A stretch of DNA of 64,000 bases, from NCBI GenBank assembly GCA_021234155.1, contig JAJEKV010000041.1, positions 6,565,249-6,629,248 on the forward strand, written 5' to 3'. Position 1 is the stretch's first letter. Each line of letters starts with the position of its first letter. The notes under the pieces are model-generated. The model had not been told where the DNA came from. It ran no database searches and saw only the letters and a program-made list of their open reading frames with translations. The DNA comes from Isoetes taiwanensis. Its lineage: Eukaryota > Streptophyta > Lycopodiopsida > Isoetales > Isoetaceae. Both the position numbers and the translations under genes were made by a program. This document shows, in pieces, positions 19,687-63,890 of this stretch.

Positions 19687-19703
19687 GCTAGACTTTGCTG
19701 CTA

Positions 19704-21197
19704 ATGGGTGAACATTGGAGGCAGCTGCCTGTTGGCACTGTTGCTGCACCTAGTGGCTGGTTTGTTCCTGATAGTATGAGGGGTCAGTTTGTTGACCACC
19801 AATTGTGGGGAGGGGAAGCCAATGCATTAGAAATGGCAACCAGCACAAGGGAGTGGACTAGATTGGAACAAGGCTTGTGTTGGGGGGAAAATGTTTTAAT
19901 TGATGAGGAATGCTCTTTGCGAGGTAAAACTGGCAAAAGTGCTTGGGACTTGGGCCAATCATATGGCAGTCAAGCACCATTCGACATAGAACAAACTGCT
20001 CTTCCAGAGCTGACTGAAAATTTCTCGAGCTTTCACTGCAGGGCAGATTTGGTAATATTAGATTGCAGTTCAGATGGAATTACACTAGAGAATAATGAAA
20101 AATGGAAGCATAGGGAGCTTCTTAATGGTTTACCCGATGACCTTCTTGAGAGGATTTTTGCTGCATTGCCTCTCCTCAGTCTGTTCCGAGCAAGAGCTGT
20201 TTGCAAAAGGTGGAATTTAATAATCGACTCCAGTTCTTTTCGGGCTCTTTGTGCCCAACATGCTAATCATAAACCTTGGTACCTCATGTATAAGGACTCA
20301 GAGAAGCCCATTGTAGTCGCATTTGATCCTTCATCTAAAAGGTGGCACAACTTTGTCCTTCCTCATTTTGATCCTATGACAAGTTTCGTTGCCTCTGCAG
20401 ATGGTCTGGTTTGTTTCATGGATAAGACCAATTGTGACATGATTTATGTATGTAATCCAATGACAAAGGCTTGGAGAGTACTACCTAAACCACCTGATCA
20501 TTGGATTTCTGATTACTGTGCAGTTTCAATGACAATAGGCAAAGATCAGAGAACTTACAAGATTGTTATTGCTCGATCAAAGCAAGTACCCGATGATTAT
20601 ACACAGTGGGATTTCTCTATTGAAGTCTATGATTCTGCGTTAGACTCTTGGATGAGTTCTAGCAGCAAGGTCTTGAAAGGATGGCGAGCAGGAGAAGAGA
20701 GCAATATCTGCAACGATATGTTTTATTGCGTTACGCACCCTACTTTTGGTGTTGGTCAGGATAACTCAAGGCATGGATTGATTGTGTATGATCTTTGTAC
20801 TACAACATTTCAAGATATGATTTTGCCAATGCCTTGTTCCCTCTCCTGTGTTAGACTGATGAGCCGTTGGGATCGTCTTATAATGGTGGGCGGTATTGGC
20901 ACATATGATTTTATTAAGGGGGTTGGTGTATGGGAGCTTGATACAGAATGGAAGCAGATTGCTAGAATGCCTACCAAGCTGTTTCATGGCTTTATAGGAG
21001 GTCTTGATGATGTATTTTCATGTTGCGGACATGGCGACCTTGTTTACATTCATAGTTATGGAAGTCCACAGCTGATGGTACATGATATATCTCAGGGATC
21101 ATGGAATTGGGCAAGAGCATGTCCTACTCTCAGGCGAGATCCTTTGCACCTCTTTGCAGGTTTCTGTTTCCAGCCACGTCTTGATATTTTAGTATAG
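19704..21197 (+). CDS. HWS: F-box/kelch protein, HAWAIIAN SKIRT-like
   Basis: F-box proteins of this type are the substrate-receptor subunits of SCF ubiquitin ligases. Arabidopsis HAWAIIAN SKIRT (At3g61590) limits organ growth and affects the microRNA pathway. I start at the ATG at 19704, giving 497 residues. A longer frame from 19695 would need a TTG start. The F-box lies at about residues 140-180 (LPDDLLERIFAALPLLSLFR, then AVCKRWN). The C-terminal kelch-type beta-propeller shows motifs I recognise from HWS: SKQVPDD..QWD, LKGWRAGEESNICND, PMPCSLSC, VGGIGTYD, VYIHSYGSPQLM and LFAGFCFQPRLDI. It is about 85 residues longer than Arabidopsis HWS, all at the N terminus. The coding region is a single exon with a probable 5' UTR intron (acceptor at 19687), as expected for this family. 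Confidence 0.88.
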   Translation: MGEHWRQLPVGTVAAPSGWFVPDSMRGQFVDHQLWGGEANALEMATSTREWTRLEQGLCWGENVLIDEECSLRGKTGKSAWDLGQSYGSQAPFDIEQTALPELTENFSSFHCRADLVILDCSSDGITLENNEKWKHRELLNGLPDDLLERIFAALPLLSLFRARAVCKRWNLIIDSSSFRALCAQHANHKPWYLMYKDSEKPIVVAFDPSSKRWHNFVLPHFDPMTSFVASADGLVCFMDKTNCDMIYVCNPMTKAWRVLPKPPDHWISDYCAVSMTIGKDQRTYKIVIARSKQVPDDYTQWDFSIEVYDSALDSWMSSSSKVLKGWRAGEESNICNDMFYCVTHPTFGVGQDNSRHGLIVYDLCTTTFQDMILPMPCSLSCVRLMSRWDRLIMVGGIGTYDFIKGVGVWELDTEWKQIARMPTKLFHGFIGGLDDVFSCCGHGDLVYIHSYGSPQLMVHDISQGSWNWARACPTLRRDPLHLFAGFCFQPRLDILV

Positions 21198-27695: not shown

Positions 27696-27893
27696 GCCTC
27701 CTCTGGGCCTCAAAACAAGATGAAGGGTAGACTCCTTCTGAATATTATAGTCAACCAAGGTCCTGCCATCTTGAAGCTGCTTTCCAGCAAAAATCAACCT
27801 CTGCTGATTAGGAGGAATTCCTTCCTGCCTTAACATTATCAATAGTATCAGAGCTCTTCACTTCAAGAGTAATGGTTTTACCAGTAAGAGTTT
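27696..27893 (-). pseudogene. Ubiquitin coding fragment, frameshifted
   Basis: Ubiquitin is the small protein modifier ending in Gly-Gly. The minus strand starts with KTLTGKTITLEV at 27893 and runs through [11 protein letters not shown] gap of about 14 nt then shifts the frame, and it continues as [20 protein letters not shown] to [12 protein letters not shown] at 27696. It therefore spans ubiquitin residues 6 to 76. After Gly-Gly the frame does not stop but continues in frame into the degenerate repeat (PCSILPNP...). The N-terminal five residues are missing because the LTR of element LTR-B abuts at 27894. This is either a broken host (poly)ubiquitin gene or a piece captured by a transposon. 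Confidence 0.88.
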
Positions 27894-28486
27894 TGTTACG
27901 GCACAAGCTCAGGGGAGCGACGCAGAGGATTTGCAGAGATGAACAAAGTGGCAAAGGTGTTTGTTAGCATTTTGAAATCTAAATGTGTGGTGGAATTAAA
28001 GCAAGAAGCTATTTTAATATAAAAGGCAACTGCCTGCTAAAAAAAGGCTAGTCTTGGAGAGGTCTATAAATAGAAGTTAAACTTCAATTGGATATATCTT
28101 AGCAATCAGAGCTGCGATTGAGGCGATTTTACTTCATTGGAACCGACTCAGAGTCTAGTTTCCAATTGGAATGGCACATTCTATAATTCGTCCATATGAG
28201 AGAGTAATGGACGAAAATGTGATAAGAGGTCATAAATTACTGCAGCAGCGACATCACAATTTTGTAACCAAGTCTTTATGATCCGCAATTGATCCCAGAG
28301 AAGTTGTTCAGTTGAACAACAGAATTCTCAGTTTTGGGAAGAGCCACAGAGATCCTTTGCAGTGTTCGCAAATCTGAGCCCGATCGGTGGTGAATTTGTG
28401 CCAAAAGGTCTTGTTCCTGGGTTTTAAAGTTGTGTTCGATTAACTGTGACGACTAGTTTTGCAGGTAGAAAAGACAGTTCGTATCA
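27894..28486 (+). mobile_element. LTR-B, left (5') LTR
   Basis: This 593 bp segment starts TGTTACGGCACAAGCTC and matches 42808-43400 along its whole length with scattered substitutions and small indels. It is followed at 28488 by TTGGTATCAGA, a primer-binding site of initiator-tRNA(Met) type, which fixes the plus-strand orientation. Flanking pentamers are AGTTT on the left and, if the right LTR ends at 43402, AGTTC on the right. That is at best an imperfect target duplication. Confidence 0.85.
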
Positions 28487-28808: not shown

Positions 28809-30295
28809 TGTGACGTCCCCTACTCGTATACGATGCCCGCACCGTATACAAACAGGAGTTCATCCCCCGCACCAGCTCCACACTGATACAGGGCCCTCCA
28901 CATATCACTGTGACCGTCTAGAGTCCACAGTGGGAAGAGTGAAGGGGTCATTTTACCCCGTCTCCCTCAGGGTCTACCTAGCTGCGGAAGCGTAAACATA
29001 CACGTCAGTAACATAACATCATATATCCACCTCGAAGGGTGGCACATCAACATCTGCGTAGACGAAGATCAGCACAATACAAAGGAAGTTTCTACCCAAG
29101 GCTCAGACTCCAGGGGATGACTGACTAGCTTGGGTCTCCGAGTTCGGTCGCGGGCATTTAATCATGACGATGGATTGGGCTGGCATAAGAACATGGCTTA
29201 GGGTTGTCCACTCCATCCGCCCCTCCTATGCACACTTTGCAGAGTAGGTTGAAAAGTGTTGGGACCTGGATCAGCCTGCGGGTGCATAGCCAAAGGGGCT
29301 ATTCCCCAAAGTTACATCTCCCAGTCCCGATGGGGCGGTAGGGATCACTCCCTCCGTAGATCTACATGTCGACCCAAGGTGACTAGAGAGCCACTGCCCT
29401 TATTCGACTTAACCCACTGGAAGGTGAACACCTGTCGAGCCCATGCCTTACCCACACTCAGTGGCAAGCCATTAGACCTAGTCACTCTGATCCCCGGTAG
29501 ACTTTACACGCCAGAGGGATCGGTCAAGGGTCCTCATTCTAAGCCAGTCTGGCCCCTTCACCCACAACCAGGTGGGCTCCTGTACACAGGCCGAATTCTA
29601 GTAATGCACTAAGAGGGACTAGCTAGGAGTATCATCTACTAAGCTTTAAGTCTCTACCCCCCTTCCCAATACAATGAGTCCACATAATATATCCGTCCAT
29701 CATATGAACATAAGTAATAAGAACTAATCTAATACATAGAGTTAGGTTCTTTAGTTAGAGTCAATGTCGGGACACCTTGCTTATTACTAAGGGCGATTTA
29801 ATAGGCTAAACCCTCTTTGGTTCAAGGCCGGAATAAGGTTTAGGCTATTCAATCGACCAAATACCTGATCCCTGGTTCACTCCTCTTGATCCGAAGGCAT
29901 CCATGTCTCTGTTCTGCTTCGGGATGCGGTCGGAAGGATGATCTGACAAGCTGGGGCGCAATGGCAGATCGTGGGAGTTGGAATTGACTCCTCAGGCGCG
30001 CGAATCGGAGCTCGGGAGGTCTGTGGGCGAAAAAGGGAATGTTAGGGTTTGGTGCCTTATGTAGGCTATCAGTTAGGTTTAGGGTTTCCATGACCTTGGT
30101 CTACCTTTAATGGGTTAAAGGTCTAAAGGTGCGCGCATTGCTAAGTGTGCGCATCATTGCAAGTTGCCCCCTAGGGCGTCCTTGCTTGGGTACACGCGTC
30201 GGCATTACCGCGTCGATTGGGCCGGCGATATGCGGCGTGGATTTGCAAAGATGCGGTATACGTCTTGGGACCGTATAGCGTACTGGAACGTCACA
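28809..30295 (-). mobile_element. Gypsy 3' LTR
   Basis: 1487 bp. On the minus strand it begins TGTGACGTTCC after the polypurine tract and ends GGGGACGTCACA, so the termini are TGTGACGT...ACGTCACA. It pairs with 40788-42277. Small indels distinguish the two; for example, the right copy has extra bases near 41415 and 41527. Confidence 0.92.
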
Positions 30296-31128: not shown

Positions 31129-32109
31129 TTAATCTACACAGATCGACATGCCTGAGCCGATTTCTTCGGAGATGACCTTGCCGTCCCATTGCTCCATAAA
31201 CTGTGGGTATTGTTTTTCCAGATCTCTTTTAAGTACCCATGTGGCGTCTTCCACTGGCAAGTGTTTCCACTTGACCAAGTATTGGATGAACTCCGATCTC
31301 CTTGTTTTCTTGAAGGCTTTATCAAGAATTAGCTCTGGAACTATTTCTAACTGCTCTTCTGTCATTTCCAACATCGTTGGTGTATCCAAAACTTCCTCTG
31401 GATTGGGAGTATGCTTCTTCAGCAGACTCACGTGGAAGACTTTGTGGATCTTTAAGTGTGCTGGCAAGTCTAACTTGTAGGATTGGTTACCCACTCTTTG
31501 GACTATTCTGAAGGGTCCAGCCCACCTTGGAGCAAGCTTCTTGCAATTTCCGATGCGGAGTTTCGCCTGCTTCACTTTGATCTTGAGCCATACATCCTCT
31601 CCAACTTGGAATTCTCTGACTGTCCGGTGTTTGTCGGCAATGCTCTTCTGCCGACTCCTTGCTGCTAGAAGATATCCTCGAACTTCTTCCACAAGCTGCT
31701 GCATGTCGCTCAACATCTGCTGCGAAACTTCCACTTTTGACACGGGATTGTGCCAAGTGTCTGGAGTTAGGCATTGATAGCCGTAGTTGATCATGAACGG
31801 CGACATTTGGGATGATTTGTGCTTGGTGCTATTGTATGCAAACTCCACCAAGTGAATAAATTCCTCCCACATCCCTTGCTTGTTCCAGACATAGTTTCGG
31901 AGCATGTCTTCCAATATTCTGTTGATACGCTCCGTTTGCCCATCCGTCTGTGGGTGATAGGCCGTGCTCATGGATAGCTTCGTTCCAATCGTTGTGAAGA
32001 GATCCTGCCAGAAGGCACTCATGAACTTCGGATCTCGGTCAGAGATAATTTCCCTGGGCATGCCATGGAGTCTGAAGATCTCTTTGGTGAAGAGCTTTGC
32101 CGTATCCAT
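31129..32109 (-). pseudogene. Gypsy integrase core and chromodomain
   Basis: Integrase inserts element DNA into the genome; a C-terminal chromodomain can steer it to marked chromatin. This 326-codon frame begins inside the catalytic core. IISDRDPKF carries the second catalytic Asp, and STAYHPQTDGQTERIN carries the catalytic Glu. LAPRWAGPFRIVQRVGNQSY is the GPF/Y-type module, and a chromodomain follows at about residues 255-310 (VPELILDKAF, then YLVKWKHLPVEDATWV). It overlaps the preceding frame (32039-33484) with a shift near 32100. The first catalytic Asp is in that frame (MDFITGLPR). This final block itself has no internal stop. Confidence 0.9.
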
Positions 32110-34019
32110 AGCTGTGTCCGTGGTCCTGGGCCATCTTCGACAATTTGTCGACCACGACCATCAAGGCATCCTTACCTCTTACTGTCCTTGGCAGTCCTGT
32201 TATAAAGTCCATGCTGACGACCTCCCACTTAGCGTTTGGCACCGCTAATGGTTCCAATGCCCTTGGTATTCGAAGTTGTTCTGCCTTTGTTTGCTGGCAT
32301 AGCTGACACTCCTTGATGTAGCGGGCTATCTGCTTCTTCATTCCCGGCCAATAGTAGCTGCTACGCACTTTAAAGTATGTCTTCATGAATCCTGCGTGGC
32401 CGGCTATTGGGCTGTTGTGGGTGTCGTGGAGGATCAACTTTCTTACTCCAGATGATTCCGGCACGCACAACTTGTTCTTATGGTATAGGAGGTTACTTTC
32501 CTTCTTAAAATTTTTGAAGGTTTCCCTCTCCTTATCCGTTCTCGCTTCCTTGCACAAGCTTGCCCATACTTCCTTGAAGTCCATGTCCGTTGGCAAGGTT
32601 TCTTCTATCTTTTTCCCGAAATCGCTGAAGAGAGTCGAGATTGCGTTGCAGTGCACCCTGGTTGTCAGTTGATGCCTTGAAAGCGCATCTGCTACCACAT
32701 TAAGCTTCCCGGGCTTGTAGACTATCTCAAAGTCGTACTCCTCGAGAAACTCCATCCACCTTCGCTGCCTCAGATTGAGATGTGGCTGCGTGAATACGTA
32801 CTGGAGGCTCTGGTGATCAGTGTCCAGCTGGAACTTCCTCCCTAAGAGGTAATGCCTCCAGATTCTCAATGCCCTGACAACTGCTAGCAGCTCTTGGTCA
32901 TGCGTCGGGTAACGCGTTTCGGCGTCGTTCATCTTCCTTGAGTCGTACGCTACTACCCGTTCTTTTTGCATGAGCACTGCACCTGTGGCTATCTTGCTTG
33001 CGTCCGTCGCCACTAACTTGTCCTTTTCCGGGTCTGGCAGGGTTAAGACGGGGGCGGTTGTTAAAGCTTCCTTTAACAATTCAAATGCTGCCTGGGCTTT
33101 CTTGAGCCAATGGTCTGCCCAATTTTTCACTTTCTCCGCCTTTGTCAAGTCTGTCAGTGGGGCTGCTATCTTTGCGAAGTTCTTCACGAACTTTCTGTAA
33201 TACCCTGCTAGGCCAAGGAAATTTCTGACCTCATGGACGTTCTTTGGTGCCGGCCATTGGATTACTGCTTCAATCTTGGCGGGGTCTGTCGAGATTCCTT
33301 CCGCTGAAATCACATGACCGAGGTATTCCACCTTTTCTGTTGCGAAGTGGCACTTCGACAACTTGGCATACAACTGATGCCTTCTTAACTTCTCGAACAC
33401 CTTTCTTACGTGTTGTACATGCTCTTCAACAGATTTGCTGTACACCAGAATATCGTCGAAGAATACTATCACAAAGGTGTCCAAGTATTCTCAGAAAATG
33501 TCGTTCATGAGTCTCATGAACGTAGCTGGGGCGTTAGATAAGCCTAAATGGCATTACGGTGAACTCGTAATGCCCATACCGGGTTCTGAAAGCCGTTTTG
33601 TGGATGTCCTCTTCCTTTATTCTGATCTGGTGATACCCTGACCTTAGGTCGATCTTGGAGAAGACCTTTGCCCCTTGGAGCTGATCCATCAGGTCGTCTG
33701 ATCTGGGGAGTGCGTACTTGTTCTTGATGGTGTGCTTGTTCAATTGTCTGTAGTCTATGCACATCCTCAAGCTTCCATCCTTCTTCTTGACAAAGAGGAT
33801 GGGTGCCCCAAATGGTGAGACACTAGGCCTGATGAAGCCTAGATCGAGCAATTCTTGGAACTGCTTCTTTAGCTCCGTGAGTTCATGTGTGGTCATTCTA
33901 TATGGGGCCTTGCTCGTCGGCTTGGTCCCTGGTTCGAGTGCTATCTCACACTCCACTCCCCTGTAAGGAGGAAGCTTCTCGATCTCATCTGGAAAAAGAT
34001 CGTGGAACTCCGTGATCAA
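32039..34019 (-). pseudogene. Gypsy reverse transcriptase, RNase H and integrase N-domain
   Basis: The RT N-terminal half lies at 34019-33534: [20 protein letters not shown], then [27 protein letters not shown] and VMPFRL. A one-base shift and a TGA separate it from the second half, which starts at 33484 with [12 protein letters not shown]. In that motif the usual Tyr of YxDD is Phe. [20 protein letters not shown] (connection) and then RNase H with [15 protein letters not shown] follow. The integrase zinc-binding motif is [14 protein letters not shown] with CQLCQQTK downstream. Order and spacing are normal for Ty3/gypsy. The element encodes no intact polymerase because of the shift and stop near 33500 and the shift near 32100. 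Confidence 0.92.
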
Positions 34020-34028
34020 GTTGGCGAT

Positions 34029-34867
34029 TTACTTGGGCAACTTGCTGAGCACTTTGTCTTCTTTGCTTCCCTCCGACTCGGGTTCCTCAACCTCGAGTTT
34101 GAAGATGTATGCTACCTGCTCACTCTTTATAGACTTGAGCAGCTTCTTAACAGACATACACTGCATGATGGGAGTAACTCCTTTACCTGTGATTTCAATG
34201 GCTTTGCCGTCGGGTGTTGGGAAGGTCACCTTCCGCTTTCCACAATCAATGATGGCCCCTGCAGGCCCAAGATACTCCATTCCAATGATCAAGTCATACT
34301 TGCCAATGCCCATTACTTACGCCCCATCCGGATATTAATCCACGGCAAGTCGATGTCGAAGTTGATCCTTTTTCCAGGTGTATGTCTTCTTTGCTCAAAA
34401 CTTGCCAAGATTACGAGTCTTGGTTTGGACTTTAGGGGTTTCAATTTCAACATTTCAACCATCCTCGGGGATGCGAAGTTATGGCTACTTCCGGAGTCTA
34501 TCAAGACTATGAAAGACTTGGCCTTTGCCTTCCCTATTGTGGAGATTACCTTATACTGGGTCTCTGCCTGTTCTGTATCTATAGCAGCGAAGATGTGGCA
34601 CTCACCCTGAATGTAATCGCGTGCCTCCTCGCCGTCTTCGTCGTGAGTGTCCCATCCGCCCAGATGCGCGGTGGCCGAGCTCATAACAAATGGGCGGTTC
34701 ATTTGTTGGTTGGCGGTGGAAACATCTAAAAGCGGCTGCTTCTCTATGCATTCCTGCCTTTTCTCCTTGGGCATCGCCTGTAAGAAGGACCGTACTGCTT
34801 TCGAGTAATTGGAACCTTCTTGTTTGTCCTTGAAGAACACACCTTTCTTTCCTGCTTTGTTTCCCAC
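34029..34867 (-). pseudogene. Gypsy aspartic protease region
   Basis: The protease cuts the Gag-Pol polyprotein. In frame 34867-34313 the active-site motif is FIVLIDSGSSHNFASPRMVE (Asp-Ser-Gly). The frame shifts near 34313 and continues in 34313-34029 with YDLIIGMEYLGPAGAIID, a flap or second-half motif typical of plant gypsy proteases. It lies directly upstream of RT. The start of 34867-34313 (KAGKKGVFFKDKQEG) is the end of gag. Confidence 0.85.
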
Positions 34868-35890
34868 AGTTTGCTATTGTATGGGGACTTTCTTTGGACT
34901 TGGGCTGGCTGCCCTAGGGACTTGTAGCTCCTGTTGCTTTCCCTCTATCGATAGTAAGGCTGCCTCGTGTGTTGTTCTCGGCCCGAATCCTTACAAACTA
35001 ATTGCTTTGGATTCTGCTTCCGATACTGTTTTAGGGTCTATTGCCCTTACAAGTTTCCTGATTTCCTCGTTGAGCCCTTCTATGTAGCTTTCCCTTTGCA
35101 TGTTTCTCGCTTCGGCTTAGACACATACTGACCTTAGTCTCATGAACTCTTGATTGTATACGCACCATCTTGTATCCCTGGCGCAATCTGTAGAAGCTTT
35201 AGACTTGTGTTCAGAGGAACATAGTGGTTCTTAAAGCTTTTGAGAACTTCTTAAATCGGCATGCATCTCTTTCAAACCATGGGCCTTGGCATAGCCCTTC
35301 CACCATATCGTCGTGCGGCCCCCTTCGGGTTGGTTGTTGCCACCACTGCCTCTATCCTTATCCTTCATGCGTAGGCATTGCCATACTAAACTCATTTAAA
35401 TCGAGCCATGCCTCTGCCTCTAAGCCGGATCTGTTCTCGCCCTAGAACTGTTTGAGTTTCCGGGCTTTCCATACATTGCCGAGCGCTGAATCCACCTTCT
35501 TCTGGTAATCCAGGGCCTTAGTGTCCTTCTGTCTGCCGTCTCTACGGTCCGGCGCCTGCTCGGCCTCTTTCTCGGACTCAGAATCCGAGGTCGAGCTTGA
35601 GTCGGAGGTCTCTGTGCTAGGGGACCTCCTTCTCTTACTCCTCCTCTTGTCTTTCCCCGACTTTTGGGGTGTCGTTTGTGGCCCGGATGATGCTTGGGCT
35701 GCTAGTAGGGCCTTTATCTGGTCCAGCTCTGTTCGCATCTGCGACATCTCCTCTTCAAATTGTCGGGGACCATATCCTTGAACGAGGTTCCTTTGAAGGG
35801 GTTGTCTGTCGGGGGTCTCTTCATCTGTTGGGCCTTACGTTACTTTCGACCGATTCGTTGTTCCCTATCTGCATACACAATTGGTCATGG
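34868..35890 (-). pseudogene. Gypsy gag, broken
   Basis: Gag forms the particle that packages element RNA. The clearest block is 35747-35442: a helical start (MSQMRTELDQIKALLAAQA), a Lys/Arg-Ser-rich patch, then DYQKKVDSALGNVWKARKLK. Further down (35440-34870) Gag-like sequence continues with stops and frameshifts, including SYIEGLNEEIRKLVRAIDPK, a motif typical of retrotransposon Gag domains. The upstream start is uncertain, near 35880. This position just before protease is standard. Confidence 0.7.
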
Positions 35891-36049: not shown

Positions 36050-37560
36050 CTATTCTTGACAACGCCGGTAGGATGGATTATCCTCTAGGAACTTCTTCAC
36101 TTGGGCTGTTCCCACTGAATGACCTAAGTTCCTAAGGACGTTGACTGAAGATCCACCCTGCAAAGCTCCCGCCAACTCTTCTATCCTGCGCTCGGAGGTA
36201 TAGGCGACGGTCATTGCCAGTCTTCCCTGCCGTCTGTAAGGTATGGCGAAGTAAAAAACATCGAGTGCTACCGCTCTCTTCACCAGGATGGCATACTCGG
36301 TGTTGGGAGCTAGCCGAGCATGCCGGCCAAAGCCTGAGAGTGCAATTAGCATCGATACTCCTTCCTCGCCCCTGGGGGTGAATTTGCAGTGTATTACCGC
36401 TATTCTTCCATCCATCAGCAGGGGAAGGTAATACCGCAAGGACCTGTCGTTGCGTGACGGGTCCTTGCCTCCTCAGCCTCCAGCTCTGTGTCTACCGGCA
36501 TAGTCATCGACTTCCACCGTGGTGAGCTCCCTGTAGTCTCTGACTGTTGCTGAAGCTCTCCTTAGGTCGAACTCGCCTCTTCGCTCCCGGGGAGGCGTTG
36601 TCGAAGAACTTGCCGTTAAGATGTTCGAGGTTGCGTGGCGGATCCCCATCTGTTCCTGTAGAGCAAGGAACTCTTCCTCCGTCGGTAGTTGCCCTGCCTC
36701 CATAATCTGCCTGATGTTGCTGTAGGCTTGCATATCAGAGGTCGACTCTCCCGTGTAAGTGTCGGCTTCCCTTACTTGGAGTGGGAAGTCGGAGGTTCCT
36801 CGGACGATGAAGTCGTCCAGGTCAGTTCTCCGGAGTTGGTGCAGCAATTCGTCCGGTCGATACTCTCTTTCCCTGCACTCTGGGAGGTTTTGGATGTCGC
36901 TTAGGAGCAAATATTCTTCGCCTTCGAGGATGATGGGGGCTAGGCTTGTGATACCTAGCCCAAGGGGTGGCGCGATCCTAAGAGTTTGCCGTGCAACTCT
37001 TGTTCTGCTAGCCGCTGCTCTTCCGCTGGGTCGAGCTCGACGTAGTCCTCATCCTTTTCCTCTGACTCCTCGTCTTCTTCTTTTCCTTCTTGCTCCTGTT
37101 CGTACTGCGAAAGGAGTTGTTGCGCTGCTGCTGTGGCTATTGGGTCCACGTCCATGGGGGGAATGGAGGTTTCTCCCATGGGGTTCTCGGCACGGTGGGT
37201 AAGGAAAATTGCTAAGGCAGAGTTGAAAGAGAAGTACTTGGTCCTGTTGACAGTCAGGACCATTGGCTCGGGCATGCGCTGGGCCTTGTTTGTGAGATAC
37301 TTGCCAATGTTTGGAATATCGCCTAAGGCTGCTTGAAGGGATTGCCTAGGAACAAAGTAGCCTATGCAAGGTGGAAGCTGCACTAATGATGGCTCTACCC
37401 TAGCTTGAAATTCAGACAGGACTCTGCTATATGTTGGGGTTGCATGCAAGATTGCTTGGACATCTATTTCTTTCCGGAAGATTCAGAAAATCTCATCGAT
37501 GTCAGCCTCGGCAGCATGAGCGCTGGCGCTGTACCATCGCCTGAAATCAGAAGTTGCCAT
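36050..37560 (-). pseudogene. Accessory gene X of the gypsy element, unknown function
   Basis: A gene of about 500 codons on the minus strand between accessory gene H and gag. The ATG at 37560 (MATSDFRRWYSASAH) lies 114 bp downstream of a TATA box. The frame holds to 36955 except for a TGA at codon 26, shifts near 36960, and continues 36910-36050 with one TGA at 36475. Features: a strongly acidic Glu/Asp-rich stretch (SQYEQEQEGKEEDEESEEKD), then a charged middle. The C-terminal part looks folded (YYLPLLMDGRIAVIHCKF, then APNTEYAILVKRAVALDVFY). I recognise no family. It shares its promoter cassette with gene H, which suggests co-regulation. The breaks are mostly single-base changes, so the gene was intact recently relative to the rest. 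Confidence 0.7.
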
Positions 37561-37673: not shown

Positions 37674-37683
37674 CTATTTATAG
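37674..37683 (-). promoter_or_regulatory. TATA box of accessory gene X
   Basis: The minus-strand sequence CTATAAATAG lies 114 bp upstream of the gene X ATG. The 10-mer is identical to the gene H TATA box. The following leader shares blocks with it (CCCTCATTT, then ACGT, and AGCTCCCTgaGGCGctCTT against AGCTCCCTagGGCGatCTT). Confidence 0.8.
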
Positions 37684-37874
37684 AAAAGGGGAAAAACCCT
37701 AATTTTTGGGTGACTTGGAAAATTCTTGGGGTTGGGCGGTTCTAGCCTATGTTGAGGTCAAAATGGGAATTGGAAGACTAATTTAAGGGTTTGAGCATGA
37801 CTGGATTACCTAAAGATGCTAATACAACAGGTTGAATATCATTTGGACAAGTTATGGTGAAGAAATGGTAGGAG

Positions 37875-37941
37875 GTCTCACAGGTAGTGCCTCGTTCAAA
37901 AGCTATACTTTAGTTTCTTGACCAGGCGCGACGTGTGAGAC
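37875..37941. promoter_or_regulatory. 67 bp palindrome P1 (upstream of gene X)
   Basis: Imperfect palindrome: GTCTCACAGGTAGTGCC, a TTCAAAAG half, an ACTTTAGT centre, GACCAGGCGC and GTGTGAGAC. It is one of four 67 bp copies in this element. It lies about 190 bp upstream of the gene X TATA box and 200 bp from P2. Confidence 0.85.
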
Positions 37942-38074
37942 ATCACTCTCATTTTGATCAAAACATGTCCAATTTGGGTAAAATAAGGGTGTAAGGATGA
38001 CAGACTCATCAAATCAGGCAGACTTGATCCCTTATTTGGTCAATTTGGAGCTGTTTTGGGTAATTTTAGGCAAG

Positions 38075-38141
38075 GTGTCACAGCTAGCGCCTCGTCCAAA
38101 AACTAAACTTTAGTTTCATGACCAGGCGTGACCTGTGAGAC
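38075..38141. promoter_or_regulatory. 67 bp palindrome P2 (upstream of gene X)
   Basis: Second copy, same layout (TCACAGCTAGCGCC; AAAACTAAAC/TTTAGTTT centre; ACCAGGCGTGACCTGTGAGA). It is exactly 67 bp, and its start is 200 bp from the start of P1. Confidence 0.85.
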
Positions 38142-38247
38142 ATCACACTTTTCGAAAACCTGCTATTCGTCCTAATTAAGCAAGATTTGACATATAACTA
38201 CTCAAAATCGATTTATATTACAGAATTTTCGATTATTTACAAAATGT

Positions 38248-40116
38248 TTAATGGCGTTCTCCCTTGATGCGACTAGCAAGATACATGTCTTGCCTCATAA
38301 GTGTTACTCGCTTTGCATGAACAGTGCAAGCCGTCGAGTCCTCAAAATGTTGCACTATTTTCTGCTCCGCCGCTTCCTGTAGTGCCAGCAGCATCTCATC
38401 CGTGACCCTCATGTCAGTCTTGAAGTCCTGCATCACTTCTCTGACTAGACGGGCAAAGGGGGCACGGGGGATTAGGAGGCCGTAGCTGCGCTGAAAGTGT
38501 CTGATCTCTCTCAGTGCTCTTCTTTCGGTCTCCTTCCTGCTGGGTTTCTTCTTAGCTGGTCTCTTAGGGGCCTTGGGCTTTGGTGGTGGCGGCCTTAGAG
38601 TCTGCTGCTTTGTCGGATGTCCACCCTCGATGGTGCGTACTCTGTTCTCCTGATAGTAGGAGTTGTAGGCCTCCCACTATGCCTCGTGCTCTCGCATCTT
38701 TCGCTCGTAGATCTTTACGGGGTCCGTGACATAGGACTCTCGGGCAGGCCGGGGTTGCTTCTTCCTGTCCCACTTTGGATAAGGAGGGAGCTTCTGCACT
38801 TTGTCCGGTTGCTCCTCCTCGGGCGCTACCTGCTGGGTTACCACCTGCTCAACGATCGGGGGTTTGGAAGAGCTTGCCCCCTCAGTGTTGGGGTTATGGT
38901 CTTCGTCAGAATCCTCGGAGGAGGCCGGGGGCTGATCAGGTGGCCGTTCGGTAATGGTGACCTTGGGGTTGGGCTTCTTTACTTTTGGGACCTCCTTGAG
39001 CTTTCTTGGGCTCCCCACCCATTTCCCTTTCTTCTGCTTGAGTTCCTCTGCCGCTTTCGCCTCCTCCTCTTCCCTCTTCCTCTTCTTTTGTTCCCTTTTC
39101 CTTTCTCGGCGTTCATACTTTGCGATAAACGCAGCGAGGTCTTCTTCCTCCGCCGGCTCAAGCCTCGGCTCCCGCTGTTCCTCTCGTTCCTCGGCCTCCT
39201 TCTCGCGGATCCAGGCTTCGAGTTGCTCTTCAATGGTGGGCTCGGGAGTCGGTAGTCTCTGCTCCTCACGAGCCTTGGTCCTCAGGGTTGCCCTTAAGGG
39301 GCTATTTATAGCCAAATGGCTATATTTTGAATATTTTCGAAAATGAGATACTAAAGCTGAATAGGTTACTATTGAAAATAAATTATATTCTTTCGCCAAA
39401 GTTTTACCATTTCGTCTGCCCGCCTTTCTTAAATTAGCCATGCATTCTTAAGCTCAGATCTAGAGTTTCGCCTCCAGTTCCATGGATCTAAGTGTTTAGG
39501 ATCATAGATTATCCCCTTAACAACATTGTAGATCAAGTAATTGTTTGCTAGCTCTAGTGGACCATAGTAGAATACTCAAAAAATCAACAATTACTCAAAT
39601 TTTGCTAAACATAAATCCTTAATCCTGTAAGTTGTATGTGAATTGACATCTAATTTATTTATTCCAATTACCACATTAACGTTGGCAAGGTTTGCCAGAG
39701 TTTCTATAAAACAGTTCAAGTCGCAAAAAGCAATCGCCTACAAAATTAATATAGAAAGCTTATGATTCGCCTCACCTTCTAAATCACGCCTATGCAGATA
39801 TGGCCTTAAGGGCAACCCTGTTGGTCCTTCGTTCTCGCTGTGCTCCCTCCTCTTCTTCTTCAATTATCTCCGTTCCTGCTTCTGAGTGCACCTCTTCTTC
39901 TCGGTCGACCTGCCGGTCTCTCTCCTCATTCTGTTCTGCTCTCCGCTGGGATCCTTCACTATTGTGCTCATTCGAGGGTTCTCCCTCACTCGAAGAAGAT
40001 TGACCGTTGGGGTCAAGAAGGCGCTCCTGAAGCATGCGCCGAATCGTGCTGGAATCAAGGGCGCTGGTCGATTCGCCTGGGCGGGCTTTCCTGGCAGTCT
40101 ATTTTGTTCGGGCCAT
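38248..40116 (-). pseudogene. Accessory gene H: histone H3-like protein inside a gypsy retrotransposon
   Basis: Minus strand, ATG at 40116. Leaving out the inserted MITE and one copy of its target duplication, the frame is 441 codons including the stop at 38248. The N terminus reads MARTK, TAG, TARK, matching the histone H3 tail with codon 6 changed to a stop. A long linker follows: an acidic Glu/Arg-rich part, a basic coiled-coil-like part, then Pro/Lys-rich sequence. A complete H3-type histone fold lies at about codons 352-440: [11 protein letters not shown] (alpha N), [15 protein letters not shown] (alpha 1), QDFKTDMR (loop 1), LLALQEAAE (alpha 2), [11 protein letters not shown] (loop 2/alpha 3) and IKGERH. 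A second TAG is codon 298 (38679-38677). Loop 1 has canonical H3 length, while LLIP.APF and RVTLMR.D resemble plant CENH3. Ordinary H3 is 136 residues. The gene has its own TATA box and leader. Inferred role: chromatin incorporation or targeting. Confidence 0.88.
39275..39828. mobile_element. hAT-type MITE inserted in gene H, with 8 bp target duplication
   Basis: The 538 bp element 39283-39820 has 17 bp perfect terminal inverted repeats (CAGGGTTGCCCTTAAGG) and is flanked by identical 8 bp duplications TTGGTCCT at 39275-39282 and 39821-39828. Eight-base duplications and CAGGG termini are typical of the hAT superfamily. Its interior is AT-rich, carries stops in the gene H frame and encodes no transposase. 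The flanking gene H sequence is in the same reading frame on both sides, so the insertion hit a continuous coding sequence. Confidence 0.93.
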
Positions 40117-40215: not shown

Positions 40216-40225
40216 CTATTTATAG
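40216..40225 (-). promoter_or_regulatory. TATA box of accessory gene H
   Basis: The minus-strand sequence CTATAAATAG lies 100 bp upstream of the gene H ATG. It is followed by ACCCCCTCATTTAGACG, closely similar to the leader of gene X. P3 lies about 100 bp further upstream. Confidence 0.82.
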
Positions 40226-40327
40226 CTTGGCAAATTTTTAGGTCAAAATTCAAGTTGCTCTATTTAACATGCCAAGGCACCTATTTACTTAAAACTTACA
40301 CTTATTTCAGACTTTTTCTACTTATTG

Positions 40328-40394
40328 GTCTCACAGGTAGCGCCCTGTTCAAAAACTAAAGTTTAGTTTTTAGACCAGGCGCTAGCTGTGAGAT
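40328..40394. promoter_or_regulatory. 67 bp palindrome P3 (upstream of gene H)
   Basis: The best-preserved copy: TCTCACAGGTAGCGCC on the left pairs with GGCGCTAGCTGTGAGA on the right, around AAAACTAAAGTTTAGTTTT. It lies 191 bp from P4. Confidence 0.88.
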
Positions 40395-40518
40395 CTTACA
40401 CATTTTTAAGTAATTTAAGTAATTTAAACATGCTATTCTAACTAATTCCTACCTTGGAAGTAGCCTTACCATATTACTTTTCTCAAATTCATCAAGTTTA
40501 GTGTGTTCTTGGCTCGAT

Positions 40519-40585
40519 GTTTCACAGGCAGCGCCCTGCTCAAAAACTAAAGTGCAGTTCTTTGACCAGGCGCGAGCTGTGAGAC
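40519..40585. promoter_or_regulatory. 67 bp palindrome P4 (upstream of gene H)
   Basis: Fourth copy: TTTCACAGGCAGCGCC on the left, CAGGCGCGAGCTGTGAGAC on the right, AAAACTAAAGTGCAGTT in the centre. It lies between P3 and the primer-binding site. Confidence 0.85.
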
Positions 40586-40768
40586 CACCTTGCCTGGGGA
40601 GGTTTTGGCTCATTCTTTTTAGTCTTATTAAGTTCCAATTCACTTAACTGTTACTAGCTTAGCATAAACTAAAAATGAGAAAAAAATTTCCCACTTTTCG
40701 AGGCTTAAGGGTCCTATCAAGTTAGTACTACTGGGAGCATGGTCAGTGCTTTGCTCTTGGTCTCCAAG

Positions 40769-40786
40769 AACATGGCTCTGATACCA
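40769..40786 (-). other. Gypsy primer-binding site (initiator tRNA-Met type)
   Basis: The minus-strand sequence TGGTATCAGAGCCATG starts one base after the end of the 5' LTR. TGGTATCAGAGC is the classic complement of the initiator tRNA(Met) 3' end used by many plant LTR elements. It fixes the element's orientation. Confidence 0.92.
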
Positions 40787-40787
40787 T

Positions 40788-42277
40788 TGTGACGTCCCCT
40801 ACTGTCATATATCGATGCCCGCACCGTATACAAACAGGGAGTTCATCCCCGCACCAGCTCCACACCGATCTGAGGGCCCTCCACATATCGCCGTGGACCG
40901 TCCTAGAGTCCACATTGGGAAGAGTGAAGGGTCATTTTACCCCGTCTCCCTCGGGGCCTACCTAGGCTGAAGCGTAAACATACACGTCAGTAACATAACA
41001 TCATATATCCACCTCGAAGGGTGGCACATCAACATCTGCATAGACAAAGATCAGCACAATACAAAGGAAGTTTCTACCCAAGGCTCAGACTCCAGGGGAT
41101 GACTGACTAGCTTGGGTCTCCGTGAGTTCGCAAGGCATGTAATCATGACGATGGATTGGGCTGGCATAAGAACATGGCTTAGGGTTGTCCACTCCATCCG
41201 CCCCTCCTGTGCACACTTTGCAGAGTAGGTTGAAAAGTGTTGGGACCCGACTATAGCCCGCCGGGTGCATAGCCAAAGGGGCTATTCCTGGGTTACATCT
41301 CCCCAGTCCCGATGGGGCAGGTAGGGATCACCCCCTCCAGAGATCTACATGCCGACCCAAGGTGACTAGAGAGCCACTGCCCTTATTCGACTTAACCCAC
41401 TGGAAGGTGAACACCACCCCACGGGTGTCGAGCCCATGCCTTACCCACACTCAGTGGCAAGCCATTAGACCTAGTCACTCTGATCCCCGGTAGACTTTAC
41501 ACGCCAGAGGGATCGGTCAAGGGTCAGAACACGAACCTCATTCTAAGCCAGTCTGGCCCCTTCACCCACAACCAGGTGGGCTCCTGTACACAGGCCGAAT
41601 TCTAGTAATGCACTAAGAGGGACTAGCTAGGAGTATCATCTACTAAGCTTTAAGTCTCTACCCCCCTTCCCAATACAATGAGTCCACAGAATACATCCGT
41701 CCATCATATGAACATAAGTAATAAGAACTAATCTAATACATAGACTTAGGTTCTTTAGTTAGAGTCAATGTCGACACCCTTGGCTACTAAGGGCGATTTA
41801 ATAGGCTAAACCCTCTTTTGGTTCAAGGCTGGAATAAGGTTTAGGCTATTCAATCGACCAAATACCTGATCCCCGGTTCACTCCTCTTGATTCGAAGGCC
41901 CATGTCTCTGCTACGCCGGGATGCGGTTCGGAAGGATGCTCGACAAGGCAGCGCGCCGCGGTCGTGGGAGTTGGAATTGACTCCTCGGTAGCGAATCCGG
42001 ACTCGGGAGGTCTGTGGGCGAAAAAGGGAATGTTAGGGTTTGGTGCCTTATGTAGGCTATCAGTTAGGTTTAGGGTTTCCATGACCCTTGGTCTACCTTT
42101 AATGGGTTAAAGGTCTAAAGGTGCGCGCATTGCTAAGTGTGCGCACCATTGCAAGTTGCCCCCTAGGGCGTCCTTGCTTGGGTACACGTCGGCGTACACG
42201 TCGATTGGACGGCGTGTACGCGTGACGGTGCAGTACGATATACGTCTTGGGACCGTATAGCGTACTGGAACGTTACG
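40788..42277 (-). mobile_element. Gypsy 5' LTR
   Basis: About 1490 bp, homologous to 28809-30295 end to end. Its outer end reads GGAACGTTACG where the other LTR has GGAACGTCACA, so the outer terminus has mutated and the exact boundary is uncertain by a few bases. Confidence 0.9.
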
Positions 42278-42807
42278 AATTCACATTGATTATCTAAAAG
42301 ATAAGTAAACTAAATAAGTTTGTGTATGCTTATAATGATTAGTTAACTGAGCATAGCTCTTTATTTGACTTAGAAAAGGGTTTCTTTTCACTCAAATATT
42401 GATGTAGAGTTTAGAAGTACGGAGGTGACTATGACTGCAGCACAGAAGCCAGATCCTTAAAATAACGTTTTGTAGGCAGATGGTAAGTCTACCAGCCTAG
42501 GAGAAATCTTTTCAAAGCAGATAGTCATGCGACTAGCTTAGAACGAAAGGTGAATTATTCCAGCAAAGCGGATAGTCAGGTGACTAGCTTTGGGAAAAGG
42601 TGGTTGTTTCCGCAAGACAGATGATCGAGTACGATCAGTCTTGAGACGGAAAGGAAAGAAATTGTTTCCGCAGGACAGATGATCGAAAACGATCAGTCTT
42701 GCCCGCAAGGCAGACGATCAAGTACAATCAGTCTTAAGACGAGAAGAAATTATTAAGACCTGCAAAGCTGATGATCGAGGACGATCAGTCTTGAGACGAG
42801 AAGGAAT
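42278..42807 (+). mobile_element. LTR-B internal region, right part with hairpin array and PPT
   Basis: Non-coding sequence resuming LTR-B after the gypsy insertion. Its second half (42473-42793) is an array of seven stem-loops. It ends with the purine-rich GAGACGAGAAGGAAT directly before the 3' LTR at 42808, the expected polypurine tract position. Confidence 0.75.
42473..42793 (+). repeat. Seven tandem stem-loops upstream of the LTR-B 3' LTR
   Basis: Units lie at 42473-42499, 42514-42539, 42564-42592, 42613-42643, 42671-42701, 42706-42736 and 42763-42793. Each has an outer stem, an AGAT- or GGAT-type left bulge, an inner stem and a 4-base loop. Outer stems change together on both sides: TAGGC/GCCTA, AAGC/GCTT, AAAGC/GCTTT, CAAGAC/GTCTTG. 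So do inner stems: GGTA/TACC, TAGTC/GACTA, GATCG/CGATC. Units 4, 6 and 7 are followed by a purine-rich spacer (GAGACGRRAAGRAA type). Confidence 0.88.
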
Positions 42808-43400
42808 TGTTACGGCACAAGCTCGGGGGAGCAACTCAGAGGATTTGCAGAAATGAACACAGTGGCAAAGGTGTTAGTTAGCATTTTGAAATCTGGATGT
42901 GTGGTGGAATTAAAGGAAGAAGCTATTTTAATATAAAAAGCAACTGCATGCTGGAAAAGGCTAAAGTCGTGGAGAGGTCTATAAATAGAAGTTAGACTTC
43001 AATTGGATATATCTTAGCAACTAGAGTTGCGATTGAGGCGATTTTTACTTCATTGGAACTGACTCAGTGTCTAGTTTTTGATTGGGATGGCACATTCCGT
43101 AATTCGTCCATATGAGAGAGTAATGGCTGAAAACGTGATAAGGGGTCATAAATTACTGCAGCAACGACATCACCATTTTGTAACCAAGTCTTTATGATCC
43201 GCAATTGATCCTAGAGAAGTTGTTCAGTTGAACAACATAATTCTCAGTTTTGGGAAAAGCTACAGAGATCTTTTGCAGTGTTCGCAAATCTGAGCCCAAT
43301 TGGGTGGTGAATTTGTGCCAGAAGGTCATGTTCTTGGGTTTTAAAGTTGTTTGGATTAACTGTGACGGGTAGTTTTGCAGGTAGAAAAGTCGGTTCATAG
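42808..43400 (+). mobile_element. LTR-B, right (3') LTR
   Basis: 593 bp, starting TGTTACGGCACAAGCTC, matching 27894-28486. The last few bases (GGTTCATAG) differ from the left copy (AGTTCGTATCA), so the terminal CA is lost or the boundary is a few bases off. Confidence 0.85.
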
Positions 43401-55737: not shown

Positions 55738-56938
55738 CCATGATATAATGCTTGCTGAATTTAATGTGAAACCTCTGAGGGTTGAAATTGCCTTTCAAAC
55801 AGTGACTTATTTACATCAGTTACACCGTTTTGGACAATCACAAGGTGGTAAAAAAAGACTTCCCTGGTTGGCATATGTGTCGTCTAAAATATACATTGGT
55901 TTAAAATATACGTTGGCAGACCAGGGTAAGCGCTGTTGGTCCTCAAGGACATCTAAATTGTTTGAGAAGATGGGCTTCTCTATGGGAAATATCCCACCTT
56001 TTCAATACAGTATAATGGATGATAATCTGAATTTTACTCAGCAAAAAGTTTATCAACTTATACGCCATGACTTGGAGTGTCTTTATGTTTCAAATATATG
56101 GGTAAATCCCGTCAAAGATCTGCCTGCTAAAAAGAAATTCTATAAGGATAACTATATCAGCAGATGGTTTTATCGTAAGGCCTGGATATTTGGATATTGA
56201 TCTGCCGAATAAAGTGAGATGCTCTATGGGGCAGTTTAGAGTGTCATCTAACCAGTTGGAGATTGAGGTTGGTAGGGCGAAAAATATTAGTCGTGAAGAT
56301 CGGAAATGCCCAATGTGCGATTTTATAAGAACAACATTTTATTTTTACCTGCCCAACTTACTACAGCATTAGAGGCAGATATCATTGTCTTTTTTAGAGA
56401 CCCCGCATCTCTACGATACCTAGTAGTAGAATATTACAATTAGAAATGTGTATCTCACTTTGTATATGAACTATCCCTAGAACGGAGAAATATTCTCAAA
56501 CAAAATAATCCAACAGGCCTGAAACAAACAGAAATAACCTTTTTATCTGAGTCAAACGATGATAGAAGGCATCACAGAAGAGGAAGTATCCTGACCCTAA
56601 AGGGTGACTTTGGCACTGTCTAAGAAGATAAAACAATCTGCAGCCATGAAACATAAAAAGTCTTTCCAGAATAGGCTGAGCATCAAGCATCAAAGCAAGC
56701 CAAGAAAAGGTATTATGAATTACTTTGCAGCAGTCACAAGAACAAATGGGCTATCCCCATCAAAATCTACCTGAGCAGATTCTTAGGGTTTCACTATAAG
56801 TTCCGTTAACTTATTATTTTTGTTTGTATATTTTAGATAACAGGAGGGTTTTCCTCCTGGAGGTCTTGAATTCTGTATGTGTTATGGTCTTATAGACCCT
56901 TCGGATCTTACGTAGACGTTAATAAATCTTTCTTTCTT
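55738..56938 (+). mobile_element. 5'-truncated LINE (family shared with 62.6-63.9 kb), plus strand
   Basis: Starts inside ORF2: MLAEFNVKPLRVEIAFQTVT, then QSQGGKKRLPWLAY, SMGNIPPFQYS and QLIRHDLECLYVSNIWVNP (55748-56200). A frame change follows, then SNQLEIEVGR and a degraded CPMCDF motif. A 3' UTR runs to the conserved tail at 56872-56935: ATGGTCTTATAGACC, cTTCGg, GTAGACGTTAATAAA, then TTTC repeats. The protein is clearly homologous to the minus-strand frame at 63870-63304. Confidence 0.85.
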
Positions 56939-62579: not shown

Positions 62580-63890
62580 GAGAAAGAAAGAAAGAAAGAT
62601 TATATTAACGTCTACGAGAGACCGCTTGGGTCTATGAGACCAAATATACATCAATCATGTCCAGCTAGGGGCGCATTTGCAGCCACCTAGAGATATTGCA
62701 TAAAAAAGGAAAAAGAAAACTAAAACAATGAGATTAAGAAACTTTTGTCTTCTTGGCCACGGGCTCAAAGTATAAAGTAATGTCAGACTTGTTTTCTCTT
62801 TTGAAGGACTGCTTATGTTTATCCTTTACCGTCCGCTTTCTTCTTCTCGACACTTTCATGGTTACTCCTTTTGAGATTGGATGAGATGGTCCGAGGAGAG
62901 AACCTGCCTTCCGTTTATTATCATTATCACCTCCAATGAGAAAGAAAGTGATCAGTCTTTCGCGTGGGATCGTTTTTCATGTCCCGCTCTTCCCCCAGCT
63001 TGCTCCTTTAATAGATTTCTTCTATGCACAGTCATTTGGTGAAGAAAAAGAGCTATACATTTCTGATCCTCATAGGCGATCAGTTTGGAGAGGGAGGTAG
63101 GTTCCCGAAATAGGCAATGGAATCTGCCCCGTATTTCATAATAGACTGGACATGTGAAGATGAAATGTTCCTCTGACTCAATTACATTCAAGTGACATAG
63201 TCTGCAGATTCTTTTCGGCTCTCCACCTTCGGTCTACTAGCGACCAGCTTCGATCTCGAGCTGATGAGATGAGACCCTGAGCTGACCGATAGCATGTCTC
63301 ACCTTATAATGCGAGGTGAATATTCAAATATCCTGGTCGCTCGATGAAACCATCTTCATTGATCTCAAGGAAGTGATCTTTGTAAAATTGCATCTTGGTA
63401 GGAAGATCACTTGGGGTTAACCATGTCCTTGATATGTATAAAATTTCCAGATCGTGCCGTATGAGCTGGTTCTTCTCTTTTTCAAGTCTCTTTTTTGCTC
63501 CAGGTTTTACCGCTGTATTAGCTGCAGCTACATTATGTTGAAAGGGGGGCAGGTTTCCCAAGCCAAATCCTAAGGAAGCAGCCCATTGCGATGCTTTTGC
63601 GTACCAACATTCCTGCACTCCCTTTTCAGCCAGATCTTTGGAGCTCTTGAGAGCAATCCATGGAAGCCTGCATTGGCCTTGCTGCGAGGACCCGAGTTGG
63701 TGCACTTTATGCAAAAAGGAGACTAACTGGAATGCTGCGTCCAGTTGAAGCGGAGTGGCTGAAAATTCTGCCAATATGATTGAATGTGGCACAGATGCTT
63801 TGCTCATAATCATTTTGGACAGAAAATAAATTTGCAGTCTGTTGAGTGGAGAAGATGATCTGAACAGCAAAACACTATGGAGAGAAGAGG
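62580..63890 (-). mobile_element. 5'-truncated LINE, minus strand
   Basis: ORF2 C-terminal frame 63870-63304 (188 codons): NRLQIYFLSKMIMSKASVPH, then AEFSATPLQLDAAFQLVSFL, QCRLPWIALKSSK and KNQLIRHDLEILYISRTW. After a stop, SEEHFIFTCPVYYEIRGRF (63191-62952) is the terminal Cys/His region. The 3' UTR ends in the conserved tail at 62635-62580: TTGGTCTCATAGACC, GGTCTCTCGTAGACGTTAAT, then TTTC repeats. The 5' end is near 63890. It is homologous to the copy at 55.7-56.9 kb and better preserved. Confidence 0.85.

Follow-up and report, generated by a model that had tools for sequence, protein, structure and literature searches.

Plant chromoviruses have in common long terminal repeats (LTRs), a primer-binding site of the tRNA-Met type, gag, and regions encoding protease, reverse transcriptase (RT), RNase H and an integrase with a C-terminal chromodomain. 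We have analyzed a Ty3/gypsy chromovirus with a chromodomain from the lycophyte Isoetes taiwanensis, located on the minus strand of a 64,000 nucleotide stretch of contig JAJEKV010000041.1 (positions 6,565,249 to 6,629,248; the whole stretch is termed the window). This element of ~13.5 kb has the same components, but adds two genes ahead of gag (H and X), each with its own TATA box, and paired palindromes. It belongs to a chromovirus family, present in many copies, that has a histone H3-type gene between the primer-binding site and gag.

Genes for H3 have been described in mobile elements of another kind. In the sections covered of two reports on fungal hAT DNA transposons (PMC3538342, PMC6710886), a host H3 has been captured and amplified by elements with inverted ends, the H3 copies being near-identical or inactivated. 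The Isoetes element is by contrast an LTR retrotransposon, with H3 genes of four classes that have either a long linker or a fused N-terminal domain, and with synonymous saturation relative to host H3. An orchid Gypsy provides an example of a plant Ty3/gypsy element in which an extra frame encodes a domain captured from the host, an AlkB-type RNA demethylase; that cargo is an enzyme, whereas the Isoetes cargo is a histone, and the passages covered of that screen of 121 angiosperm genomes name no histone domain (PMC9289625). Giant viruses are also selfish genomes that encode histones, although in the part of the literature covered (e.g., PMC11500106) these large DNA viruses have their histones as full or doublet sets, in contrast to a single H3 in a retrotransposon. 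Lastly, the element proteins share the H3 fold with plant CENH3 and with canonical H3. We call the window type of element H3 class A, and three further types classes B, C and D; class A groups with CENH3 in a tree and classes B–D with canonical H3, but class A has a MARTKQTARK tail and lacks, in the alignment, the longer loop 1 of CENH3, while B–D have an N-terminal domain of ~200 residues unseen in H3.

A histone gene in an LTR retrotransposon was not encountered among the open-access papers listed by our search, most subscription papers and bioRxiv lying outside its scope. There is no occurrence of the word histone in the parts covered of PMC7264820, which reviews the extra frames of plant LTR elements, or in the main texts of the genome papers for I. 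taiwanensis (PMC8566536) and Isoetes sinensis (PMC10541799).

The original prediction was that one minus-strand frame of the window contains an H3 tail motif, interrupted by a stop codon, and ends in an H3 fold. Translation of this region bears it out (Table 1). The histone-fold match in Pfam and the PDB is far beyond chance, and the best core-histone match of the fold is of H3 type. Its identity to the H3 of Isoetes itself is 59% over 88 residues, in agreement with an estimate by eye of a little over half. Judged by these comparisons, H is almost certainly a histone H3-type gene of an old and conserved family of elements that is widespread in this genome.

The copy in the window is decayed, with two in-frame stops and an insertion of 538 bp, and is thus not functional. 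The insertion is hAT-like, with inverted ends, and the 8-bp duplication AGGACCAA flanks it at 39821-39828 and 39275-39282; it is missing from the open H copies with which the window was compared. An intron or a further promoter at this place was considered and rejected, because other copies read straight through and because inverted-repeat ends and an 8-bp duplication denote an insertion. A TATA-like decamer at 39302 is explained by its location inside the inserted sequence.

Searching the genome with the 89-residue H fold gave 9051 first-look candidates; among the best 150 scored matches, 144 have no stop within the fold, and the listed copies are spread over many contigs. For class A we read 20 copies chosen for their long frames, together with eight short loci. 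Ten aligned copies are single open frames of 415–467 codons with a constant layout, i.e., a MARTKQTARK-like tail followed by A/P/R, R and mostly PGE, a charged linker of 316–368 residues, and then the fold. A linker of about 340 residues had been proposed, and this fits the range of the family, although the window frame itself has 523 codons between H residue 10 and the fold when the insertion is included. Of the 28 copies in which residues 1–10 could be aligned, 21 have MARTKQTARK without change; 38 sources were examined, of which eight gave no tail and two a partial tail. The loci L002, L003 and L008 duplicate L009, the window copy and L010, and were left out of the tail and substitution-rate sets. 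The N-terminal tail of standard H3 has ~37 residues, with several modified lysines. No such tail joined directly to the fold is seen in class A, where residues 1–10 lead into the linker; the region of lysines 4 and 9 is retained, while most other tail sites are gone.

The gene order LTR, primer-binding site, palindromes, H, palindromes, X, gag and pol is common to the 20 copies selected for a long H frame. Of these, 17 show the leader with the primer-binding site, 19 X, 15 gag, and 14 RT or RNase H-integrase within stretches of 10 kb. H had been placed between the primer-binding site and gag; it does follow the primer-binding site, but the gene that adjoins it, at first taken for gag, is X, with gag beyond. 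Examination of H in other copies of the element had also been proposed, and for this we used a sample anchored on RT and not selected by H (rows 2–17 of the RT match list, n = 16). Eleven of the 16 have H sequence where it would be expected. Both outcomes named as refuting the prediction, a fold without a histone hit and H missing from all other copies, are contradicted by these results. Four have a listed H match at a distance of 4.1–4.3 kb; the other 12 were examined in 3 kb stretches, four of which hold nothing of the element and are hence uninformative.

Element H3 genes of the other classes came to light when a CENH3 query (P0086) was compared with the genome, giving the ordinary H3 genes of the host (L041–L043) and a large number of long frames that contain an H3 fold. 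Twenty regions were read, and the 12 open ones aligned. Classes B, C and D encode proteins of 404–455 residues that have a common N-terminal domain of ~200 residues in place of the standard H3 tail, followed by a linker and the H3 fold, which is preceded by RPGT (KPGT or KAGT in C). The fold is 83–89% identical to host H3, and members of C and D are 41–45% identical overall to the first B member. The N-terminal domain has the motif IPYPI..FNERFL.KLN (examples are L050:494-1753, L055:477-1829 and L058:93-1394 (-)), and gave no convincing Pfam match. When one member of each class was searched against the genome, B gave at least 100 scored candidates (101 rows, 63 of them without an internal stop), C at least 94 (99 rows) and D at least 97 (116 rows); in C and D, a good number of the rows are partial.

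To see whether these genes lie upstream of chromovirus RT, we counted pairs in which an H3 match has an RT-RNase H match on the same strand no more than 20 kb downstream, with upstream and opposite-strand placements as controls; the counts come from best-match lists only, and are lower bounds. For class A (two lists of 150, the RT list being its own) there were at least 29 pairs, 24 of them at 3.9–4.4 kb, with controls of two upstream and one opposite. Class B (100 × 150) gave at least 19 pairs, 13 at 4.86–5.33 kb, with no pair in either control, and class D (78 of 116 rows × 150) at least 17, of which 16 are at 4.7–5.5 kb, with none upstream and one opposite. For class C (90 of 99 rows × 150) there were at least four pairs, at 4.1, 5.2, 6.0 and 11.9 kb, and none in either control. 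The same test on 48 of the 150 rows from the CENH3 query gave eight downstream pairs, none upstream and none opposite. We also read 1 kb at ~3 kb downstream of four of the H3 genes. For class B, L061 has a gag remnant and an RT-RNase H with 77% protein identity to that of the window, and L064 a protease region with 39% identity; the class C locus L062 has a gag remnant, and L063, of class D, an LTR stretch that is 64% alike. In classes B and D, a related chromovirus RT follows ~5 kb downstream of the H3 gene; the association is more weakly established for class C.

Selection was examined using the ratio of nonsynonymous to synonymous substitution rates (dN/dS), calculated by the Nei-Gojobori method over pooled pairs. 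The ratio is 0.031 for residues 1–10 of the class A tail (23 copies, 10 codons), 0.078 for the fold (28 copies; 0.098 for the same 23 as the tail), and 0.18–0.41 for parts of the linker. These samples are partly biased, but the values for the fold indicate purifying selection on H. For comparison, RT gave 0.046 (9 copies) and parts of X 0.19–0.24 (14–17 copies); a value of 0.529 for RT-RNase H (n = 5) was set aside, as its rows seem frame-mixed. In classes B, C and D the ratios for the fold are 0.017, 0.031 and 0.064 (5, 4 and 3 copies), and those of the N-terminal domain 0.08–0.12. Between host H3 and B–D the synonymous sites are saturated, while 10–14% of nonsynonymous sites differ.

Conservation can also be followed at individual residues, chosen for what we take to be their H3-H3, H4-side and DNA contacts in the nucleosome. 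R72, C110, H113, A114 and K115 are retained in 28/28 class A and 12/12 B–D proteins. Each of R83, T118 and D123 is changed in no more than one protein per set, and R116 is retained in 25 of the 28 and all of the 12. An H protein that keeps these contacts under selection most likely still pairs with H4.

The origin of the element histones was addressed with a tree of 36 folds, based on a short alignment in which class A lies on a long branch; one nematode histone without the fold pattern was left out. Class A is one clade (100/99), and is placed with four plant CENH3s (96/92) against 22 other rows, among them two fungal proteins that bear the name CSE4. Classes B–D are likewise one clade (99/95), grouped with canonical H3 (88/97). 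Constraining A and B–D together, as for a single capture giving rise to all four classes, is disfavored by the approximately unbiased (AU) test (p = 0.026), for which the groups to be constrained were defined once the first tree was known. A single clade of Isoetes H3 with B–D is not rejected (AU p = 0.29), in a test that is not decisive. The host H3 reads QEFKTDLRF at a site at which the remaining three canonical H3s of the set read QDFKTDLRF, and the E is found in 11 of the 12 B–D proteins; this shared residue hints at a lycophyte source. The better reading of the tree, though not proven, is that there were two captures, A from near plant CENH3 and B–D from near canonical H3. The original prediction of a captured host H3 or CENH3 thus holds in that H appears histone-derived, but there are four classes, and the tree favors both kinds of source rather than one.

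The CENH3 of the host itself was not recognized among the best 150 matches of the CENH3 query, where genes with introns match exon by exon. Protein searches with H gave histones and H3 fusions (best 120 of 154 and best 120 of 2339 rows), nearly all matching in the fold only. For P0024, 64% of the query was covered at 37% identity, and for P0227, 50% at 36%; P0024 looks like an H3 variant without the tail of H. The absence of H relatives elsewhere is weak evidence, because transposon proteins are often omitted from annotations. Another protein, P0048 (532 residues, source ena), seems by eye to begin like a protease and to combine this with a coiled region and an H3 fold, and may be a further histone of a selfish element.

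What might a retrotransposon do with an H3? Our preferred reading, with a probability of about 0.5, is that H is a working replacement for H3 on the chromatin of the element. The protein would act as a real H3, pairing with host H4, and would be incorporated into nucleosomes or tetrasomes formed on the DNA of the element itself, either new complementary DNA (cDNA) or integrated copies. Element chromatin would thereby be distinct from that of the host, having a long charged extension and, in class A, the K4/K9 region with few other tail sites; class A would be descended from a CENH3-like H3, and B–D from canonical H3. Integrase chromodomains of this type are known to read methylated H3 tails. 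It may be speculated that the integrase chromodomain reads the element's own H3, coupling deposition to integration. A full loop of self-recognition, in which element H3 marks element DNA and the chromodomain reads it, with two origins and with selection comparable to that on RT, is a more tentative extension, to which we give a fairly low probability.

A number of observations weigh against a working H3. The RT-anchored sample includes seven H genes that we read, and each is partial, frame-broken or interrupted by a stop in the fold, although such decay is expected, as these genes were picked for being absent from the listed best H matches. Locus L033 has the leader and three palindromes but no H, which looks like loss by deletion between palindromes. 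In class A, R63 is changed to P and K56 to R in 28/28, and K122 to Q in 26/28, and the loss of these canonical residues could alter nucleosome formation. Classes B–D depart from host H3 at positions 87 and 105. Moreover, most copies entered the samples on their protein score or open frame, a choice that biases the dN/dS values downward; it does not account in full for the difference between fold and linker, which are parts of the same genes.

The seven decayed genes would also fit a mere passenger, a captured fragment of host histone without function, and transposons are known to capture genes that serve no lasting function, as in the inactivated H3-bearing fungal hAT elements in the sections covered of PMC6710886. 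Yet open frames exceeding 400 codons are found in many listed copies, within one and the same gene the linker changes much faster than the fold, and H3 has been retained in four classes. The synonymous saturation of B–D relative to host H3, with 10–14% of nonsynonymous sites different, and dN/dS ratios that already suggest values well below 1, point the same way, so that we consider a passenger very improbable. Less improbable, though still unlikely, is the idea of a mimic or decoy, in which H would tie up H3 chaperones, H4, or silencing enzymes and readers, and so blunt silencing with no stable role in nucleosomes. The candidate motifs are the class A tail ARTKQTARK and an ARKSG motif in class B. 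The lowest ratio in class A does fall in the first ten tail residues, albeit just 10 codons, and most other tail sites are absent while core contacts are retained. However, the fold is constrained as well, DNA and H3-H3 contacts included, beyond the needs of a tail decoy, and B–D have no N-terminal tail to offer. The grouping of class A with plant CENH3 might instead suggest targeting or packaging, whereby H would ride with the particle or integration complex, compacting cDNA or tethering the complex to chromatin, perhaps centromeric for class A. That these are chromodomain elements, and that the B–D H3 is fused to a conserved extra domain, would be in keeping with such a role; the lack of the longer CENH3 loop 1 in class A and the separate TATA boxes of H and X argue against it, and on balance it seems unlikely.

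A retrotransposon family with a selected H3 gene suggests that a mobile element produces, for itself, one of the building blocks of chromatin. Few host genes are guarded as closely as those of the core histones. An element that encodes one and conserves it, probably in two cases, would show chromatin itself, beyond its modifying enzymes, to be a battleground of elements and hosts. The family also offers a natural set of many H3 variants in which tail and fold diverge separately, and thus a way to ask which parts of H3 an element needs; that a chromodomain integrase might follow a mark supplied by the element becomes testable.

Table 1. Features of the chromovirus in the window, listed in the direction of its transcription
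Feature	Position	Strand	Basis
5′ LTR (TGTGA...CA)	40788..42285	-	LTR pair by blastn; outer end placed by eye
Primer-binding site TGGTATCAGAGCC	40774..40786	-	Sequence; after 5′ LTR ending CA
Palindrome 1 before gene H	40517..40593	-	z -3.0 vs shuffles
Palindrome 2 before gene H	40326..40402	-	z -7.8 vs shuffles
TATA box CTATAAATAG of gene H	40216..40225	-	Decamer search
Gene H (histone H3-type), decayed copy	38248..40116	-	Translation, Pfam, PDB
H3 N-terminal tail of H, MARTK-stop-TARK	40087..40116	-	Translation
hAT-like insertion of 538 bp within H, outside the gene family	39283..39820	-	8-bp duplication AGGACCAA, inverted ends CAGGGTTGCCC
H3 histone fold of H	38251..38517	-	PF00125 E = 1.6e-25; PDB histone H3.3 E = 8.1e-28
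Palindrome 3 before gene X	38073..38149	-	z -4.8 vs shuffles
Palindrome 4 before gene X	37873..37949	-	z -2.6 vs shuffles
TATA box CTATAAATAG of gene X	37674..37683	-	Decamer search
Gene X, decayed here	36050..37560	-	508 residues where open (L014:4786-6309; L017:3484-5007 (-))
gag, decayed	~34900..35800	-	Assigned by eye; match in 15/20 H-chosen copies
Aspartic protease region	34400..34720	-	PF08284, E = 1.5e-4
Reverse transcriptase, first piece	33534..34019	-	PF00078, E = 1e-14
RT end, RNase H, integrase zinc domain	32039..33484	-	PF17917, PF17919, PF17921
Integrase end and chromodomain (about 31183-31341)	31129..32109	-	PF00385 E = 5e-10, PF24626
3′ LTR, purine-rich tract just before	28809..30295	-	LTR pair by blastn; outer end placed by eye

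A Ty3/gypsy chromovirus of this length had been proposed, and its LTRs with TG and CA ends, primer-binding site (which we take to be of the tRNA-Met type), RT-RNase H-integrase order and C-terminal integrase chromodomain confirm the assignment. In the window copy the protease, RT, RNase H, integrase and chromodomain matches in Pfam are scattered over several broken frames. The two LTRs differ by a Kimura two-parameter (K2P) distance of 0.045 across 1451 aligned bases. With plant substitution rates of 6.5e-9 to 1.3e-8 per site per year, which are uncalibrated for this host, the age of the window copy would be roughly 2–3.5 million years. No target-site duplication was seen, in that no matching 5 bp flank the two LTRs of the window copy. 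A different repeat flanks the element on both sides (27893-28480 and 42807-43396, 91% alike), so that the element is nested between them, and CTATAAATAG is present on the plus strand of each copy of that repeat.

Gene X has many relatives in the genome; a search with the open copy from L014 gave at least 85 scored candidates with 76–100% identity as listed (86 rows). The H fold lies 0.5–0.75 kb upstream in at least 16 of the 23 best X matches, compared against 18 of the 150 H rows chosen by eye. A 286-residue part of X found no relatives among 2374 candidates from 5.8 billion proteins, and X gave no Pfam family above cut-off and a best PDB match of E = 0.039. Relationship to gag or to the N-terminal domain of classes B–D was considered and rejected, on these results and in view of the absence of a profile match to A3. 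Structures predicted from single window sequences for the end of X and the H fold had mean predicted local distance difference test (pLDDT) scores of 37.5 and 54.4, too weak to be used.

H had been predicted to have a TATA box of its own, and this is confirmed by the spacing of the motif in other copies. Among 20 copies examined, TATAAATA lies 108–114 bp ahead of the H start in all 17 that could be placed, and 111–122 bp ahead of the X start in 11/11, where the chance expectation from its rate in these loci is 0.045 per such stretch. There are five decamers of the CTATAAATAG type in the window compared with 0.09 expected, one being in the hAT-like insertion and two in the flanking repeats. The four palindromes, each of ~77 bp and related to one another, are arranged as one pair ahead of H and one pair ahead of X. 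No such repeat pair was seen in two class D copies checked; in the class B and C copies checked, paired repeats 107–119 bp apart lie ahead of the H3 gene, with a sequence different from that of class A.

Elsewhere in the window, the frames at 55748-56200 (+) and 63304-63870 (-) are alike by eye, have no Pfam match, and are probably another repeat. An F-box gene with a beta-propeller at 19695-21197 (+) is likely a gene of the host.

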